The notes under the pieces are model-generated. The model was not told the origin of the DNA. It made no database searches and was given only the letters and a program-made list of their open reading frames with translations. 47,248 nt of DNA from Bordetella parapertussis. GTDB lineage: Bacteria; Pseudomonadota; Gammaproteobacteria; Burkholderiales; Burkholderiaceae_C. Positions 27,053 to 37,346 of this stretch are shown here, one piece after another. The stretch spans positions 1 to 47,248 of the forward strand of contig CAMDXA010000014.1 of assembly GCA_945878065.1 (NCBI GenBank), in the 5' to 3' direction. A program made the translations under genes and the position numbers. Position 1 is the first letter of the stretch. Every line of letters starts with the position of its first letter.

Positions 27053-28216
27053 ATGGACAGTTCTTCTCACAATGCTCGGGTTGACAAAGACCCTGACCCA
27101 CACCACTGGCGCGATTGGCTGCGCCTTGGCATCACCCCCTTACTGGGTGCGCAAGCGCAGCGCACATTGATCAGCGAATTCAGACATCCCGCCGCCGTGT
27201 TTGCGCAACCGGTGTCGATATTGCAGCGGTTTGTGAATGAGGCGCAAGCCCGGTCCTTGCAACGCATACCGCCCGAGTGGGAGGCCATTTGTGAACGCAC
27301 CCAAGCGTGGTTGGATACAACACCGCAAGGGATACAACAAGAGGTTTGGGGCTGGGACCATCCGCGCTACCCCGAGTCTTTGCGCAACATCGATGAACCG
27401 CCATGGGTTTTGTTTGCACAGGGTCAGTTGCAGCATGCATGCTGGCAGGGTGTAGCGATGGTCGGCAGCCGCAACCCGACACCGCAGGGCAAAGAAAACG
27501 CACGTCGCTTTGCCAGCCAGTTGCAGCAATCGGGTTGCTGCATTGTGTCGGGCTTGGCGATGGGCATAGACGCAGCCGCGCATCAAGGGGCCATGGAGAC
27601 CGCCAACAGCGAACGCTGTGTCACGGTCGCTGTGGTGGGCTGTGGTCTAGACTTGGTGTACCCAAGACAAAACCACAGCTTGGCCAAGCAAGTGGCGCAA
27701 CACGGTTGGCTGCTCAGCGAGTTGCCGCCGGGCACACCGCCGTTGCCGCACCATTTCCCCAGGCGAAATCGCTTGATTGCAGGTTTGAGCCATGGTGTCA
27801 TAGTGGTTGAAGCAGCGCTGAAGTCTGGGTCGTTGATCACGGCAGATTTGGCACTGTCGCAAGGCAAAGAAGTCTTTGCCATTCCGGGATCCATCCATTC
27901 TGTCTTGTCGCGCGGTTGCCATGCTTTGCTGCGGCAAGGCGCCAAGCTGGTAGAAACCGCACAAGATGTGTTGGAAGAATTGCCATTTTTCACCACGGTG
28001 TTGCCCGATACGGTTGCAGTACCCGGAACCACCCCGCCCGCAGATCAGAACCAACTGGCGGTGTGCAAGGCCCTCGGCCATGAACCACAGCACTTTGAAT
28101 CATTGTTGTTGCACAGTGGCCTCACCTTAGAAGACGCATTGATGGCGTTGCAGCAATTGCAAGACCGCAAACGCGTGGTGGCCATGCCGGGCGGTATGTA
28201 CCAATTGATACATTGA
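27053..28216 (+). CDS. dprA: DNA-processing protein A
   Basis: This 387-residue protein loads RecA on incoming single-stranded DNA in natural transformation. It has an N-terminal helical region, a central Rossmann-like fold (about 110-310) with [64 protein letters not shown] and [10 protein letters not shown], and a C-terminal winged helix (about 330-385). The gene is complete. It is followed by smg on the same strand. Confidence 0.93.
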
Positions 28217-28306
28217 GACATCGCAAATTGTGCACACACCAACATCGATAAAACCATGCGCCAATGCACTCGACAGGGCTTCCTTAAAAAAGGGTATATT
28301 GATGCC

Positions 28307-28795
28307 ATGTTTGATGTTCTTGTGTATGTGTACGAACACTATTGGCGCGGTGACGTTTGTCCCGAATTGCCGCTCCTGGGTCGCAAGCTCAGCGCTGCAG
28401 GATTCGACGCCGATGAAATTCAACAAGCCTTGTCCTGGTTGGCGGGCCTCAACAGCGCCGCGCAACATGCTGACTTGATTCAGCTGCAACCACCGCGCAT
28501 GCCGTCCCCCTATGTGCAATCACCGCTGAGTATGCGTATTTATTCTGATGCCGAGCAAAAACACTTGGGCTCAGAATGCTTGGGCTTCATGACCTTCATG
28601 GAAAGCGCTGGCATCATGTCAGCGCAAATGCGTGAAATCGTGGTGGACCGCGCCATGGCCGTGACCGATCATCCTGTCGAATTGGACGATTTAAAGATCA
28701 TTGTGCTGATGGTGTTTTGGAGCGCAGGCATCGAACCTGACGCACTGGTGCTCGATGAATTGTGTGAGGATAACCAAGACCGATTGGCCCACTGA
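28307..28795 (+). CDS. smg: Smg/DUF494 family protein
   Basis: This 162-residue cytoplasmic protein of the DUF494 family has the typical start FDVLVYVYEHYWRG and ends with a helical LDDLKIIVLMVFWSAG region. The family is conserved next to dprA in beta- and gammaproteobacteria but its function is not established. The ATG at 28307 is chosen as the family start; an in-frame ATG at 28256 adds unrelated residues. A strong terminator follows. Confidence 0.88.
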   Translation: MFDVLVYVYEHYWRGDVCPELPLLGRKLSAAGFDADEIQQALSWLAGLNSAAQHADLIQLQPPRMPSPYVQSPLSMRIYSDAEQKHLGSECLGFMTFMESAGIMSAQMREIVVDRAMAVTDHPVELDDLKIIVLMVFWSAGIEPDALVLDELCEDNQDRLAH

Positions 28796-32311: not shown

Positions 32312-32860
32312 ATGACCAGCTACGCCTACATACGCCCGCAGATGAAAACCGGTGACCTGCTGTTTTGGCGCAACCACAAGGGCGGCCCCACCATCGGCTA
32401 CCTGGAGCGATTCATCGTGCAAGCGGGCACCATGTCGCCCTACATCCATGTCGGCATGTGCTGGGTGGAAGGCGGGCGCGTGTGGGTGATGGAGATCACC
32501 ACCCGAGGCTGTGCGCCCAGGCTGCTGTCACTGACCGGCGACTTTGCTTGGATCGCCGCACCACAAGCCCTGAGCAAAGAAGCCCTGTGGCGAGCACAAA
32601 GCTTCTTCGGCGAATGGACCTACTCGCGCTGGCAAGCATTCACAGGCTGGCTGGGCCGACTCCCCATCGGCAAAGACCTGCAAGGCCAATGCGCCGAATA
32701 CGTGCTGACCATCTTGAACGACTGCGAACACCTGAAGTTCACCAACCCCACCGCCACCCCGCAAGGCGTGGCCGATGCAGCCCTGATGCAATGGCAAACC
32801 CCCTTGCTGCACGTGAGCAACCCCAAGCGTGACAGCATTTATCCGCCGGATATGGGGTGA
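32312..32860 (+). CDS. Permuted papain-like / NlpC-P60-type amidase, putative
   Basis: This is a 182-residue protein without a signal peptide. The order of motifs suggests a circularly permuted NlpC/P60 (YiiX/YaeF-like) fold: GDLLFWR (14-20), a histidine in SPYIHVGMCW (H46) and a late cysteine in GQCAEYVLTIL (C127). In the permuted family the histidine comes before the nucleophile, as here. Such enzymes hydrolyse amide or ester bonds in peptidoglycan, lipids or tail-assembly proteins; phage versions are common. It is a lone gene between yajC and topB with no other phage gene nearby. No good ribosome site precedes the ATG; an in-frame ATG at 32342 is an alternative. Confidence 0.55.
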   Translation: MTSYAYIRPQMKTGDLLFWRNHKGGPTIGYLERFIVQAGTMSPYIHVGMCWVEGGRVWVMEITTRGCAPRLLSLTGDFAWIAAPQALSKEALWRAQSFFGEWTYSRWQAFTGWLGRLPIGKDLQGQCAEYVLTILNDCEHLKFTNPTATPQGVADAALMQWQTPLLHVSNPKRDSIYPPDMG

Positions 32861-32997: not shown

Positions 32998-35949
32998 TCA
33001 ACTCAAATGCGCCCCAATCAAGCCCGCCAACTCAAACATCCCCACTGAATCCTTGCCAAACACGGTTTTGAGTTTGGCGTCGCATTGGATGGTGCGTTTG
33101 TCTTTCGGGTCTTGCAAGTTGTTGGCCTTGATGTAGTCCCACAGCTTTTTCATCACCTCGGTACGGGCCACGGCCTCATTGCCGATCACCGCTGCCAAAG
33201 CCGCGCTTGGCGCTTTGCCTGCTGCGGCTTTGCGCGGGGCTTTGGGCTTGGCTTCTTTCACAGCCTTGGCCGCTTTTTTGGCCGCAGGCGTTTTCTTGCC
33301 GGGCATGGCTTTGCCTGCCGCTTTCGCCAGCGCAGCGGTGGTTGGCGCGCCGCCTTTTTTCGGGTACTTGCTTGGCTCGAACGCGAAACTCACTTTGCCG
33401 GCTTCCGCGTCGTAGGCCAGGTAGGCTTTGAACGCGCGGCGGGTGCGCATAGACACAAACTTTTCCAGCAAATCGGTTTTGCCTTCATTCAGCAGTTTTC
33501 TCACCTGGTCGTGTTCAATCACTTGTTGCAGGATGACGCGGCCGGTTTTGAAATCACAACTCGGGGTGGGCTGGGCGTTGGTCGGCACGGATTTGCTGCA
33601 CACATAGTTCGCGCCGTGCTCGTGCACCGGGCTGCCGCACTTGGGGCAAGCGCCCAGGTTTTCAGCGTCGCCAAACTCCACAATCTCGCCGCTCTCGGCG
33701 TTTTTGTCGTCGCCGAAATCAAACTCCAGCTTCCAGTTTTTGTCTTCGTCGCTGAATTTCAATGCAATCTCGGCGGCGAACGGCCAACCTGCTTTAGAGC
33801 GAAAACCATCGAGCGGCCCGATTTTCTTGTCGTGCACAAACTGCTCCACCTCGGCAGGCTCAAAGGTGCGCCCGGCCGGTGTTTTGCCGAACGAAAAGCC
33901 GCAGCCCGGGCCTTCGGTTTCGCCCTCGGCATTGACTTTGGCCACCGCGCCAGGCTTGCCGATGCAGGTGTAACGGCGGTAATTTTCTTTCACCACACCG
34001 CCGCAATTCGGGCAGGGCGTGGTCAGCGTGGCGTAGTCGCCGGGAATGGTGTCGCGGTCGTATTCCTTGGCTTTTTTCACCATGCGCCCGGTCATCTCGG
34101 CAATGTCTTGCATAAAGGCTTCGCGCGACAGCTTGCCTTTTTCCATTTGCGAGAGTTTGAATTCCCAGTCGCCGGTCAGGTCGGCGCGTGAAAGTTCTTC
34201 TACGCCCAAGCCGCGCAGCAAGGTCATGAGTTGAAACGCTTTGGCGGTCGGTATCAATTCGCGGCCTTCGCGCAACATGTATTTTTCGTTCAGCAAACCT
34301 TCGATGATGGAAGAGCGCGTGGCCGGTGTGCCCAAGCCTTTTTCCTGCATGGCCTCGCGCAGCTCATCGTCTTCCACGGTTTTGCCCGCACCTTCCATTG
34401 CGCCCAGCAACGTGGCCTCGCTGTAGCGCGCAGGCGGACGGGTTTTCAGGCCTTTGGGTTCGGCATCGTCAACCCGCGGTTGTTCACCGGCGGCCAGTTT
34501 CACCAGAATCTTGCCGGACTCTTTGTCTTCTTCCTCGTCCACTTCTTTGCCGTAAATCGCTTGCCAGCCCGGATCAATCAACACGCGCCCGGTGGTTTTG
34601 AAATGGTGGTCTTTGCCCGCAGCAGACACTTGGCTGATGCGCGTGGTGTCCATGAATTGCGCAGCCGGATAGAACACGGCGATGAAGCGGCGCACCACGA
34701 AGTCGTACAGCTTTTGTTCTGCGTCGGACAAACCGCTGGGCGCTTCCAGCGTGGGAATGATGGCAAAGTGATCGCTGACCTTGGTGTTGTCAAACACCTT
34801 CTTTGTTGGCTTGATATAGCCCTCGGCGATAGCGGTTTTGGCAAACGGTGCCAGGTGGCCCATGCTGCTCTTGGCCAGCATTTGCATGGTGTCTTTGACG
34901 GTCGGCAAATAGTCTTCCGGCAAATGGCGCGAATCGGTACGCGGGTAGGTCAGCGCTTTGTGGCGTTCGTACAGGTTTTGCGCCAGCGACAAGGTGGTTT
35001 TCGCAGAAAAACCGAAACGGCCATTGGCCTCGCGCTGCAAGCTGGTCAGATCGAACAAACCCGGGCTGCCTTTGCTGCTGGGCTTGCTCTCTTCGGTGAC
35101 CGTGGCGGTTTGTTTGCGCACTGCGTCGGCGATGGCTTTGGCTTCTGCCAGCGTCCACACACGGTCTTCTTTTTTCTCGGCGTCGTCCGCGTCTTTTTTG
35201 TGTTGCGGGTTGAACCATTTGCCCGCGTAAGTGCCGGCGGCGGCGCCAAACTGCGCGTGGATCTCCCAGAAGTCGCGGCTGATGAATTTGCGGATCAGTT
35301 CTTCGCGCTCGACCACGACCGACAGCGTCGGCGTTTGCACCCGACCGACGGTGGTGAGGAAAAAACCGCCGTCGCGCGAATTGAACGCGGTGAACGCGCG
35401 GGTGCCGTTGATGCCGACCAGCCAATCGGCTTCGGAGCGGCTGCGTGCTGCATCCGCCAAACCTTGCATTTGCGCGGCGGTGCGCAAACTGCCGAAACCG
35501 TCGCGTATGGCTTGCGGTGTCATCGACTGCAACCACAGGCGTTTGACTGGTTTATCCAGCGATTTTTTACCGCCGGCGTATTGTTCAATCAAACGAAAGA
35601 TCAGCTCGCCTTCGCGGCCCGCGTCACACGCATTGATGATGGCGCTCACGTCTTTGCGCTTGGCTTGCTTGACCACGGCGGCCAAGCGAGATTTGGTTTT
35701 TTCGACCGGCTTCAAATCGAAATACGGTGGAATGACCGGCAGGTGGGCAAAACTCCATTTGCCGCGTTTCACATCGAATTCTTCGGGTGCTTGAATTTCT
35801 ACCAAGTGACCGACCGCGCTGGTGACCACATAGGTATCGTTTTCAAAATGGTCGTCATGCTTTTCAAACTTGCCTGCGGTCGGGGTGAGCGCTTTGACAA
35901 TGTCTTGCGCCACAGATGGCTTTTCGGCGATGACCAGGGTTTTACTCAT
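32998..35949 (-). CDS. topB: DNA topoisomerase III with histone H1-like tail and C-terminal SWIB domain
   Basis: This is a 983-residue type IA topoisomerase. The N-terminal TOPRIM domain starts LVIAEKPSVAQDI and has DAGREGE. The active-site tyrosine is Y335 in LTYPRTDSRHLP. Two zinc-finger-like cysteine clusters lie near residues 645 (CPNCGG) and 768 (CPKCGS). Residues 861-914 are a lysine/alanine linker (15 K and 18 A in 54) resembling a histone H1 tail. Residues 915-983 are a SWIB/MDM2 domain (KKLWDYIKANNLQDPKDKR). The enzyme decatenates and relaxes DNA through single-strand passage. The start at 35949 gives the standard MSKTLVIAEK; the in-frame extension to 36063 is not needed. E. coli TopB (about 650 residues) lacks these C-terminal parts. 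Confidence 0.93.
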   Translation of the reverse strand: MSKTLVIAEKPSVAQDIVKALTPTAGKFEKHDDHFENDTYVVTSAVGHLVEIQAPEEFDVKRGKWSFAHLPVIPPYFDLKPVEKTKSRLAAVVKQAKRKDVSAIINACDAGREGELIFRLIEQYAGGKKSLDKPVKRLWLQSMTPQAIRDGFGSLRTAAQMQGLADAARSRSEADWLVGINGTRAFTAFNSRDGGFFLTTVGRVQTPTLSVVVEREELIRKFISRDFWEIHAQFGAAAGTYAGKWFNPQHKKDADDAEKKEDRVWTLAEAKAIADAVRKQTATVTEESKPSSKGSPGLFDLTSLQREANGRFGFSAKTTLSLAQNLYERHKALTYPRTDSRHLPEDYLPTVKDTMQMLAKSSMGHLAPFAKTAIAEGYIKPTKKVFDNTKVSDHFAIIPTLEAPSGLSDAEQKLYDFVVRRFIAVFYPAAQFMDTTRISQVSAAGKDHHFKTTGRVLIDPGWQAIYGKEVDEEEDKESGKILVKLAAGEQPRVDDAEPKGLKTRPPARYSEATLLGAMEGAGKTVEDDELREAMQEKGLGTPATRSSIIEGLLNEKYMLREGRELIPTAKAFQLMTLLRGLGVEELSRADLTGDWEFKLSQMEKGKLSREAFMQDIAEMTGRMVKKAKEYDRDTIPGDYATLTTPCPNCGGVVKENYRRYTCIGKPGAVAKVNAEGETEGPGCGFSFGKTPAGRTFEPAEVEQFVHDKKIGPLDGFRSKAGWPFAAEIALKFSDEDKNWKLEFDFGDDKNAESGEIVEFGDAENLGACPKCGSPVHEHGANYVCSKSVPTNAQPTPSCDFKTGRVILQQVIEHDQVRKLLNEGKTDLLEKFVSMRTRRAFKAYLAYDAEAGKVSFAFEPSKYPKKGGAPTTAALAKAAGKAMPGKKTPAAKKAAKAVKEAKPKAPRKAAAGKAPSAALAAVIGNEAVARTEVMKKLWDYIKANNLQDPKDKRTIQCDAKLKTVFGKDSVGMFELAGLIGAHLS

Positions 35950-35980
35950 GAATGTGTTCCTTGCATACAATTGGCTTTCT

Positions 35981-36010
35981 CGCGTGCGCGCGCACGCGCA
36001 CATGTACGTA
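35981..36010. promoter_or_regulatory. 30-bp alternating pyrimidine-purine tract (Z-DNA-prone) in the topB/SET promoter region
   Basis: Thirty consecutive bases alternate pyrimidine and purine without a break. The first 18 form a perfect palindrome, CGCGTGCGCGCGCACGCG, and the rest is CACATGTACGTA with one extra C-A step. Such runs, especially CG-rich ones, flip to left-handed Z-DNA under negative supercoiling, and the palindrome can form a cruciform. It sits 31 bases before topB and 23 before the SET gene, where core promoter parts would be expected. Confidence 0.6.
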
Positions 36011-36033
36011 TTCAACTTAACAGAGTTTTCAAC

Positions 36034-36507
36034 TTGACCTCCCCCATCATCGCACCCGCCCATGGCAAGCGCATAGAAGTCCGCAGTTCAGGCGTGCATG
36101 GCAAAGGGGTGTTTGCCCTGTTGCCTATCGCCAAAGGCGAAATCATCATCGAATACACCGGCGAGGTCATCAGTTGGAAGAAAGCGCAAAAGCGCCATCC
36201 CCACGACCCGAACGACCCCAACCACACGTTTTACTTCCATGTCAGCAAAAAAAATGTGATTGATGCGCTTTACGGCGGCAATGACGCACGTTGGATCAAC
36301 CATGCGTGTGCCCCCAATTGCGAAGCCGATGAAGCAGGCGGACGTATTTTCATACGCACGCTGCGCAAAATCAAAGCCGGTGAAGAACTCAACTACGACT
36401 ACGGCCTGGTGATTGACGAGAAATACACGCCCGAGTTGCTGGCTGAATACCCGTGCCGTTGCGGCTACAAAATGTGTCGCGGCACCTTGTTGTCACCCAA
36501 GGACTGA
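36034..36507 (+). CDS. SET-domain protein lysine methyltransferase
   Basis: This 157-residue protein is almost entirely a SET domain: HGKGVFALLPIAKGEIIIEYTG (split over two strands), RWINHACAPNC (86-96), GEELNYDYG (116-124, catalytic tyrosine region) and a post-SET-like cysteine cluster C141, C143 and C148 (CRCGYKMC). SET enzymes move methyl groups from S-adenosylmethionine to protein lysines. The start is TTG at 36034, the only in-frame start near the domain border; a weak AGAG lies upstream. It is divergent from topB and 29 bases before birA. The target is unknown; bacterial examples modify DNA-binding proteins, ribosomal proteins or host histones. Confidence 0.85.
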   Translation: MTSPIIAPAHGKRIEVRSSGVHGKGVFALLPIAKGEIIIEYTGEVISWKKAQKRHPHDPNDPNHTFYFHVSKKNVIDALYGGNDARWINHACAPNCEADEAGGRIFIRTLRKIKAGEELNYDYGLVIDEKYTPELLAEYPCRCGYKMCRGTLLSPKD

Positions 36508-36536: not shown

Positions 36537-37346
36537 ATGTCTGACAATGCCCGCATGGCTCATTCGGTTGATTCCCTACCAACGCTATTGCACAGTTTGG
36601 ACCCGTTGGCCCGCTTTGAGCATGTGCCGACCATTGGCTCCACCAACACCGAACTCATGCGTCGCGCCCGCGCAGGCGACACCGGCACCTGTTTGTTGTG
36701 GGCAGACCAGCAGTCTGCAGGACGGGGTCGCATGGGTCGGCAATGGCAAGGTCAGGCGGGCGACGCGCTGACATTTTCTTTGGGTACTTTGTTGTCACCC
36801 GCAGATTGGTCGGGTTTGTCTTTGGCGGTTGGTTGCTGTTTGGCAGACAGCCTAGACCCGTCACACACACTGGGCATAGGCTTGAAATGGCCTAACGATT
36901 TGGTCGTCAAACCAGGTCCCAATATGCGCAAGCTTGGCGGTATTTTGATTGAGACCGTGGTGCGACAAGAGCCCGGTCATCTCTCGCGATTTGTGGTCAT
37001 CGGCATTGGATTGAACCTGTCGCCCCCGGCGGCGGGTGACTACCGCAACGAGCCTGCCGGTTTGCGTGAATGGCTGGGTCAAGGATTGCAACCGCATGAA
37101 GTTCTGCATACGCTGATGCCCGATTTGATGGAAGGCTTGCAGCGTTTTGAGCGCGCAGGCTTTGCGTCGTTTCACTCCGCTTTCATGCGGCGCGATGCGC
37201 TGGCCGGCCAAACGCTGACGTTGTCCAACGGCAAACAGGGCAGGGCAGCTGGGGTGGACAGCCAAGGCGTGTTGCAAATCGACAGCAACCAAGGGCGGAT
37301 TCAAGTCAGCAGTGATGAAGTCAGCGTGTCTGGAACGGCATCATGA
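36537..37346 (+). CDS. birA: Biotin-[acetyl-CoA-carboxylase] ligase (no DNA-binding domain)
   Basis: This 269-residue biotin protein ligase activates biotin as biotinyl-AMP and attaches it to carboxylase carrier lysines. The ATP/biotin loop GRGRMGR (62-68), GIGLKWPNDL and GGILIETV are present. A C-terminal SH3-like domain follows. There is no N-terminal helix-turn-helix, so it cannot repress biotin genes as E. coli BirA does. The start at 36537 is taken; ATG at 36555 is also possible. Confidence 0.9.
   Translation: MSDNARMAHSVDSLPTLLHSLDPLARFEHVPTIGSTNTELMRRARAGDTGTCLLWADQQSAGRGRMGRQWQGQAGDALTFSLGTLLSPADWSGLSLAVGCCLADSLDPSHTLGIGLKWPNDLVVKPGPNMRKLGGILIETVVRQEPGHLSRFVVIGIGLNLSPPAAGDYRNEPAGLREWLGQGLQPHEVLHTLMPDLMEGLQRFERAGFASFHSAFMRRDALAGQTLTLSNGKQGRAAGVDSQGVLQIDSNQGRIQVSSDEVSVSGTAS

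Follow-up and report, generated by a model that had tools for sequence, protein, structure and literature searches.

Feedback from DNA supercoiling onto topoisomerase genes has been described for gyrA and topA of Escherichia coli and for topA of actinobacteria, whose supercoiling-sensitive promoters are characterised in these accounts by their sequence and spacer length (PMC7398561, PMC9825172, PMC6170449). The SIBZ treatment of the B-Z transition near transcription starts deals with alternating tracts, their transition energies and the negative supercoils that trail a polymerase, and its described cases are mouse genes and plasmids (PMC3024258). The locus considered here has features of both. 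It lies in a stretch of 47,248 nucleotides (hereafter the window) deposited as Bordetella parapertussis (contig CAMDXA010000014.1), in which topB, the gene for DNA topoisomerase III, and a gene for a SET-domain protein diverge from a short spacer that holds an uninterrupted alternating purine-pyrimidine tract. The feedback would be the same as at the known promoters, whereas the candidate sensor would be the Z-prone tract between two divergent genes, and it is TopB that would be controlled; and whereas the SIBZ cases are mouse genes and plasmids, the tract here is conserved at one locus across a bacterial family.

A preliminary description of the window had placed a topoisomerase fused to a SWIB domain back to back with the SET gene over a short shared spacer, and this arrangement is confirmed. 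It missed the alternating tract, which is the most striking feature of the locus. We propose that the tract serves the topB promoter as a Z-DNA element that responds to supercoiling, next to the gene of a probably active SET enzyme, a model-based reading that we consider evenly poised between right and wrong. The elements concerned are as follows.

35981..36011, no strand: alternating purine-pyrimidine tract, 31 bp, uninterrupted, candidate Z-DNA element
35950..36033, no strand: spacer of the divergent topB and SET genes, 84 bp
32998..35949, minus strand: topB, DNA topoisomerase III of type IA with C-terminal SWIB, 983 amino acids (Pfam, NCBIfam)
36034..36507, plus strand: SET-domain protein, probable lysine methyltransferase, 157 amino acids, TTG start

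Strength, conservation and specificity of the alternating tract

Across its 47 kb, the window has no other alternating run of at least 18 bp. Sixty Markov sequences of window length had longest runs of 17.8 bp on average and never more than 25 bp, against the 31 bp observed. Relatives were compared in a family sample (150 genomes from the family to which Limnohabitans planktonicus, genome G002, belongs) and an order sample of 200 genomes. Among 127 spacers (from 132 loci, five without TopB being left out), 114 hold an alternating run of at least 15 bp, as against none of 43 other stretches outside open reading frames (ORFs), a small control, and 0.28% of 10,120 other 120-bp pieces, which are mostly coding. 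In 110 of the 127 loci, where 2.6 would be expected by length, no alternating run is longer than the one in the spacer, and 101 spacers exceed 95% of their own first-order shuffles for run length.

Z-proneness was calculated from published B-Z energies (Table 1 of PMC3024258) in a two-state model with a 5-kb domain. The model places the most Z-prone site of the whole window at 35981-36004. It also predicts that the spacer surpasses every other site of its locus in Z-proneness in 121 of the 127 loci (2.6 expected by length), with a median threshold superhelix density (sigma) of -0.044 compared with -0.054 for the best site elsewhere in the locus. When spacers are collapsed at 80% identity the count is 55 of 60 (1.55 expected), and it remains at 54 or 55 of 60 for domain sizes of 2-10 kb. 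Long alternation, a low modelled B-Z energy and conservation beyond sequence, the marks by which a Z-DNA element would be recognised, are all found.

The conserved property is structure, not sequence. The 114 runs comprise 93 distinct sequences, their steps are mixed (669 CG, 412 CA, 212 TG and 78 TA), and their palindromes do not exceed in length those of shuffles preserving the purine-pyrimidine pattern. A hairpin or dimer site was rejected for want of a palindrome excess. The tract could instead be a B-form protein site, for a nucleoid protein or a repressor or as a promoter spacer, and its intergenic position, with a median distance of about 51 bp to either start codon, would suit one; but no sequence-specific site is seen, because the run sequences differ and carry no excess of palindromes, and we regard a B-form site as distinctly unlikely.

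The manner in which runs change bears on a second alternative. In 1170 spacer pairs, which are not independent of one another, transitions account for 69% of changes inside runs versus 45% outside, and gaps inside runs are even in length 388 times and odd 31 times (pairs with identity outside 75-99%, a length gap above 25 bp or short alignments were left out). Such patterns also fit a neutral relic, an old CG-rich repeat whose alternation would be preserved by dinucleotide slippage and transition-biased mutation without any function. Against this, the runs mix all four steps and are not simple repeats, the survey in PMC4060949 describes such patterns as generally suppressed in prokaryotes, beta-proteobacteria included, and the tract is kept at one site family-wide while being rare elsewhere in the genomes scanned. 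A relic of this kind seems to us unlikely, if worth weighing.

That rarity emerges from whole-genome scans which, like the topoisomerase family searches below, used chosen genomes, not drawn ones. In a scan of eight genomes for 24-bp alternation, three (G283, G095, G221) have no site besides the spacer, and G347 has the spacer plus one further site; G333 and G060 have sites elsewhere only, and G053 and G100 have none, a single site of opposite phase in G053 entering only the control count. Twenty family genomes were picked for a spacer run of at least 25 bp, of which 14 have no other run of that length and six do. Outside the family, a run of at least 15 bp lies upstream of topB in 2 of 93 cases and upstream of SET in 0 of 41; Z-proneness within the locus is highest upstream of topB in 1 of 92. 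One outside genome (G131, locus L162) has a 24-bp alternating run 300 bp upstream of topB and is possibly an independent case. At 21 gyrA/parC loci from ten family genomes, the best modelled sigma is -0.048, and 18 stay below -0.05.

Genomes that have lost SET allow the two genes to be told apart. Nine family genomes have no SET gene, and six of them have readable DNA upstream of topB; in four of the six (G227, G241, G276, G337) the most Z-prone site lies 24-124 bp upstream of topB. Because it is kept in these four and is nearly absent at topB and SET outside the family, the element goes with the family topB promoter rather than with SET.

TopB and a possible supercoiling feedback

In Pfam, TopB of the window matches Topoisom_bac (368 bits), Toprim, Toprim_Crpt (in two stretches) and SWIB (96.6 bits). 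The NCBIfam family PRK14724 covers residues 1-983 with 1811.7 bits (cut-off 1088) and TIGR01056 gives 540.7 bits (cut-off 515.75), which places the protein in topoisomerase III; identity as TopA was rejected, TIGR01051 reaching 212 bits against a cut-off of 456.4. Since the PRK14724 alignment begins with residue 1 at 35949, the longer start at 36063 in the ORF list is unnecessary. TopB agrees with PRK14724 topoisomerase III over its whole length, SWIB included, and no difference was seen. The TopB-SWIB fusion is already known, as it falls within this curated family.

A search with PF01131, the type IA family, in ten chosen family genomes gave topB as the sole match in nine (G283, G095, G333, G347, G221, G207, G301, G315 and G290); these nine therefore have no topA match, type IB enzymes not having been looked for. 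Members of the gyrA/parC and gyrB/parE families were matched in all ten. Judging from this gene content, TopB seems to do the type IA work alone in the relatives tested. According to statements in PMC7140829, topoisomerase I enzymes occur in all bacteria and topoisomerase III of E. coli apparently takes no part in supercoiling regulation in vivo; if the bacteria described here run on TopB alone, neither statement would extend to them.

Under the proposed mechanism, negative supercoiling, including that which arises behind two diverging polymerases, would turn the tract into left-handed Z-DNA once sigma comes close to a modelled value of about -0.04 to -0.05. The flip would tune topB transcription and would thereby provide supercoiling feedback on what is, in the relatives tested, apparently the only chromosomal type IA enzyme.

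Several points weigh against this reading. Both background comparisons are imperfect, for the reasons of size and coding content given above, and the sigma values rest on a simple two-state model. In six of the 127 loci a site other than the spacer is the most Z-prone, and in five spacers (L268, L269, L272, L287, L288) the run is shorter than 10 bp. The element is missing from two SET-less genomes (G229, G295), whose most Z-prone site is elsewhere, and it is absent too from G340, where SET stands apart from topB. A scan for the sigma-70 consensus found no promoter on either side of the spacer. Neutral upkeep is possible, as dinucleotide slippage gives even gaps and transitions keep alternation without selection. 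Finally, the type IA count concerns chosen relatives, with the window's own genome outside it, and G053 carries a second type IA match on a contig (C3) other than that of topB.

We regard the function of Z-DNA in bacteria as a long-standing open question. The candidate element has a fixed address, is conserved family-wide in structure but not in sequence, and has as its neighbour the gene that could best make use of it. Among the matches listed in the open-licence literature, no title or abstract start concerned a Z-DNA element at a topoisomerase gene of any bacterium, a SET gene beside topB or a bacterial family without topA.

The SET-topB pair and its gene order

The pairing of SET with topB is real and family-wide. 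In the family sample SET is found in 141 genomes and TopB in 145, and the two genes are divergent and less than 1 kb apart in 131 of the 150; in the order sample SET is found in 46 genomes (E <=0.001) and TopB in 98 (E <=1e-100). Among the 80 best SET loci, TopB lies directly upstream and divergent in 75, and the other five reach only 100-215 bp upstream. The 19 family genomes outside the count of 131 comprise nine without SET, six without a parsed TopB coordinate (G246, G286 and G312 without a match; G267, G282 and G306 matched but left out) and four with the two genes on separate contigs. In three of these four (G248, G268, G331) at least one of the genes is near a contig end, and G340 looks truly apart. 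No parsed family genome has its nearest SET and TopB genes on one contig in any other arrangement. Seven family genomes have a second, more distant SET gene, left out of the pair count; the one in G002 (contig C8:105030-105452) is 60% identical to SET of the window.

The third gene of the conserved block follows SET:

36537..37346, plus strand: birA-like biotin-protein ligase (Pfam, NCBIfam)

Leaving aside the six family genomes with a fused TopB, 81 of 93 topB regions of the order sample have dprA at most 2.6 kb upstream and in the same orientation, often separated from topB by smg; in those six, dprA is absent from the region fetched. Within the family, topB has left the dprA-topB order, and it now faces SET followed by birA. 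The window itself has dprA and smg at 27053-28795, about 4 kb from the topB stop, with secF, secD and yajC between (yajC being called from translation and position only), a remnant of the dprA-smg-topB order that genomes of other families usually have. Past the topB stop, a 182-amino-acid ORF (32312-32860, plus strand) has no Pfam or NCBIfam match.

It is possible that SET and TopB are functionally tied, and the family block alone is no proof of it. Indeed, the adjacency may be inherited synteny without functional coupling, a reading that we place only slightly short of an even balance. In its favour, birA is about as constant beside SET as topB is, lying within 1.5 kb downstream in 75 of the 76 loci (of 80) with enough sequence. 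Likewise, birA directly faces topB in four SET-less genomes (G227, G229, G241, G276), so the block persists without SET. Elsewhere the neighbours of SET vary (ilvD and AMP-binding enzymes, for instance), and neither TopB nor GyrB was found within about 1.5 kb on either side of ten SET loci that occur only in a class-level sample (L304-L313). Two observations speak the other way. The far side of topB is scrambled, with a protein match common to 112 of 1081 pairs from 47 loci, compared with 1079 of 1081 pairs on the SET side, birA itself included. Moreover, a separate clade has SET flanked by gyrB and topB and converging on topB (G010 and G102; L166, L168), and G059 has the same convergent pair on a contig that begins just before SET. 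In G035 and G079 (L212, L213), SET comes after dnaA-dnaN-gyrB. The placement of SET directly after gyrB is real in two clades and would represent an old location near the replication origin. From these arrangements, SET-topB adjacency seems to have arisen at least twice.

The SET enzyme, SWIB and the TopB tail

The SET ORF runs from a TTG start at 36034 to a stop at 36507, and the Pfam SET domain (87 bits) is its only domain above cut-off. Invariant in 31 aligned SET sequences are W87-I-N-H90-x-C92 (the NHxC motif), C96, Y123 and the post-SET cysteines C141, C143 and C148. We take NHxC, the catalytic tyrosine Y123 and the post-SET cysteines to be the residues on which activity depends. The presence of the domain and of all three features puts the protein among SET-domain lysine methyltransferases. 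A 31-row profile finds MLL1/KMT2A as the nearest solved structure (2e-37), and dN/dS values of 0.02-0.10 against eight close relatives show that the gene is under purifying selection. Its features suggest that the protein is probably an active lysine methyltransferase of the MLL-like SET class which would methylate a bacterial protein. There is a precedent in the Chlamydia pair cpnSET-Hc1, likewise a bacterial SET enzyme with a bacterial DNA-binding substrate (PMC3980110).

The SET family is known mostly through effectors, such as LegAS4/RomA and BtSET (PMC3980110, PMC10653858), and the possibility that this protein, too, is directed at a host has to be weighed. Its sole NCBIfam match is in fact T4SS_AnkI/LegAS4. 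At 38.6 bits, however, this is far under the cut-off of 550, and membership in that Dot/Icm effector family (AnkI/LegAS4, NF043024) was rejected. The shared feature is the SET domain; as those sources describe them, LegAS4/RomA have ankyrin repeats and the effectors have host targets, unlike the 157-residue protein here, which has no ankyrin part, and it is by these descriptions that they are set apart. The gene further belongs to a chromosomal block kept across the family, its best named matches include Limnohabitans, Rhodoferax and Ramlibacter, and it is under the purifying selection noted above. A host-directed effector is extremely improbable. A probably active SET enzyme in ordinary Comamonadaceae would offer a chance to find a native bacterial substrate.

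The preliminary description went on to treat SWIB and SET as a chromatin-like module, with the lysine-rich tail of TopB as the target of the SET enzyme. The parts of TopB concerned are these.

33004..33210, minus strand: SWIB domain, residues 914-982 (Pfam PF02201, 96.6 bits)
33211..33360, minus strand: lysine-rich linker, residues 864-913 (TopB translation)
33229..33243, minus strand: KAPRK motif, residues 903-907, ten residues ahead of the SWIB core LAAVIG (918)

Pairing does not need SWIB. In the 131 divergent pairs, the TopB match reaches SWIB in 68 and ends before it in 63 (two of the latter, those of G232 and G244, are partial matches, a contig end being the cause in G244 at least). A match can end early, as SET-less G229 does carry SWIB, and proteins behind the short matches were therefore inspected directly: SWIB is present in none of 31 inspected from the 63 and in all 20 inspected from the 68. 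On a tree of 70 TopBs (G248 and G295, with cores under 600 residues, being omitted) SWIB is found mainly in one subclade, with five changes, and clades beyond this one have the SET pair too. Given the pairs without SWIB and this tree placement, SWIB was fused to TopB later than SET and topB were paired, and joined an existing pair. The module as proposed is not borne out, and the co-occurrence that had been suggested as its check divides in two: in this family SET goes strongly with TopB and does not go with SWIB. A raw overlap of SWIB and SET exists in the order and was discarded as evidence for a module, for it is gone on independent pairs of the TopB tree (median sign-test p = 1; G171 and the second TopB of G154 are omitted from that tree).

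SWIB is found in 73 of the 200 order genomes, mostly as a separate small protein, which contrasts with a statement in PMC12445093 that it is rare in prokaryotes except Chlamydia. The chlamydial SWIB-TopA of the same source likewise carries SWIB on a type IA topoisomerase, although there the enzyme is TopA and the organism an intracellular pathogen, and here it is TopB.

The lysine-rich stretch is indeed present, as a linker ahead of SWIB; its role as a methylation target is another matter. That SET methylates lysines of the TopB tail or linker and so controls the topoisomerase would accord with the head-to-head pairing across the family and with the convergent adjacency in a separate clade. 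It would also accord with a motif, K-x-P-R-K, which 56 of 81 fused TopBs carry in the 30 residues preceding SWIB, against 0.5% of shuffled linkers. The form KAPRK occurs in 42 of the 81, versus 0.3% of shuffled linkers, and for the broader [KR]xPR[KATQ], which 69 of the same 81 carry, the distance from motif end to SWIB core is 8-14 residues in 68. KAPRK is identical to residues 14-18 of histone H3. The SET effector RomA is described as methylating H3K14 (PMC3980110, PMC10653858), and Chlamydia cpnSET as methylating the histone-like Hc1 (PMC3980110), both of which can be counted in favour.

The distribution of the tails tells against it. Tail methylation is unsupported because lysine tails persist without SET and are near lysine-free beside convergent SET: they are lysine-rich in the SET-less family genomes G241, G276, G291, G337 and the SWIB-bearing G229 (SET-less G227 has no such tail) and commonly so in SET-less genomes of the order, and the convergent genomes G010, G059 and G102 have one lysine per 21-23 tail residues. 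In addition, almost half of the pairs (63 of 131) lack a SWIB match, KxPRK occurs in 1 of 39 C-termini of family TopBs without SWIB and in none of 93 other TopBs of the order, and the family tree has at least five gains or losses of SET, with topB retained. Lysine repeats of Streptomyces TopA, moreover, are reported to raise processivity by themselves (PMC7398561). Methylation of the tail or linker as a control of TopB is accordingly quite improbable in our view. A narrower version, with methylation at KxPRK before SWIB, stays alive as a possibility suggested by the motif, which may equally be a DNA-binding extension of SWIB.

The candidate Z-DNA element and this narrower version could be combined in a closed circuit, where the tract would sense negative supercoiling and switch the divergent pair, TopB, as the sole type IA topoisomerase of the chromosome, would relax DNA in place of a missing topoisomerase I and, in the SWIB-fused lineage, SET would methylate the H3-like KxPRK and thereby tune the engagement of TopB with the nucleoid. 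As a whole, such a circuit is very improbable.

The closest SET locus in the genome collection is on a contig of a Comamonadaceae metagenome-assembled genome, with 97% protein identity, which makes the bacterium of the window Comamonadaceae-like. Two further loci near the Comamonadaceae type (L023, L071) are on contigs labelled Desulfovibrionaceae and Akkermansia, probably through misbinning.

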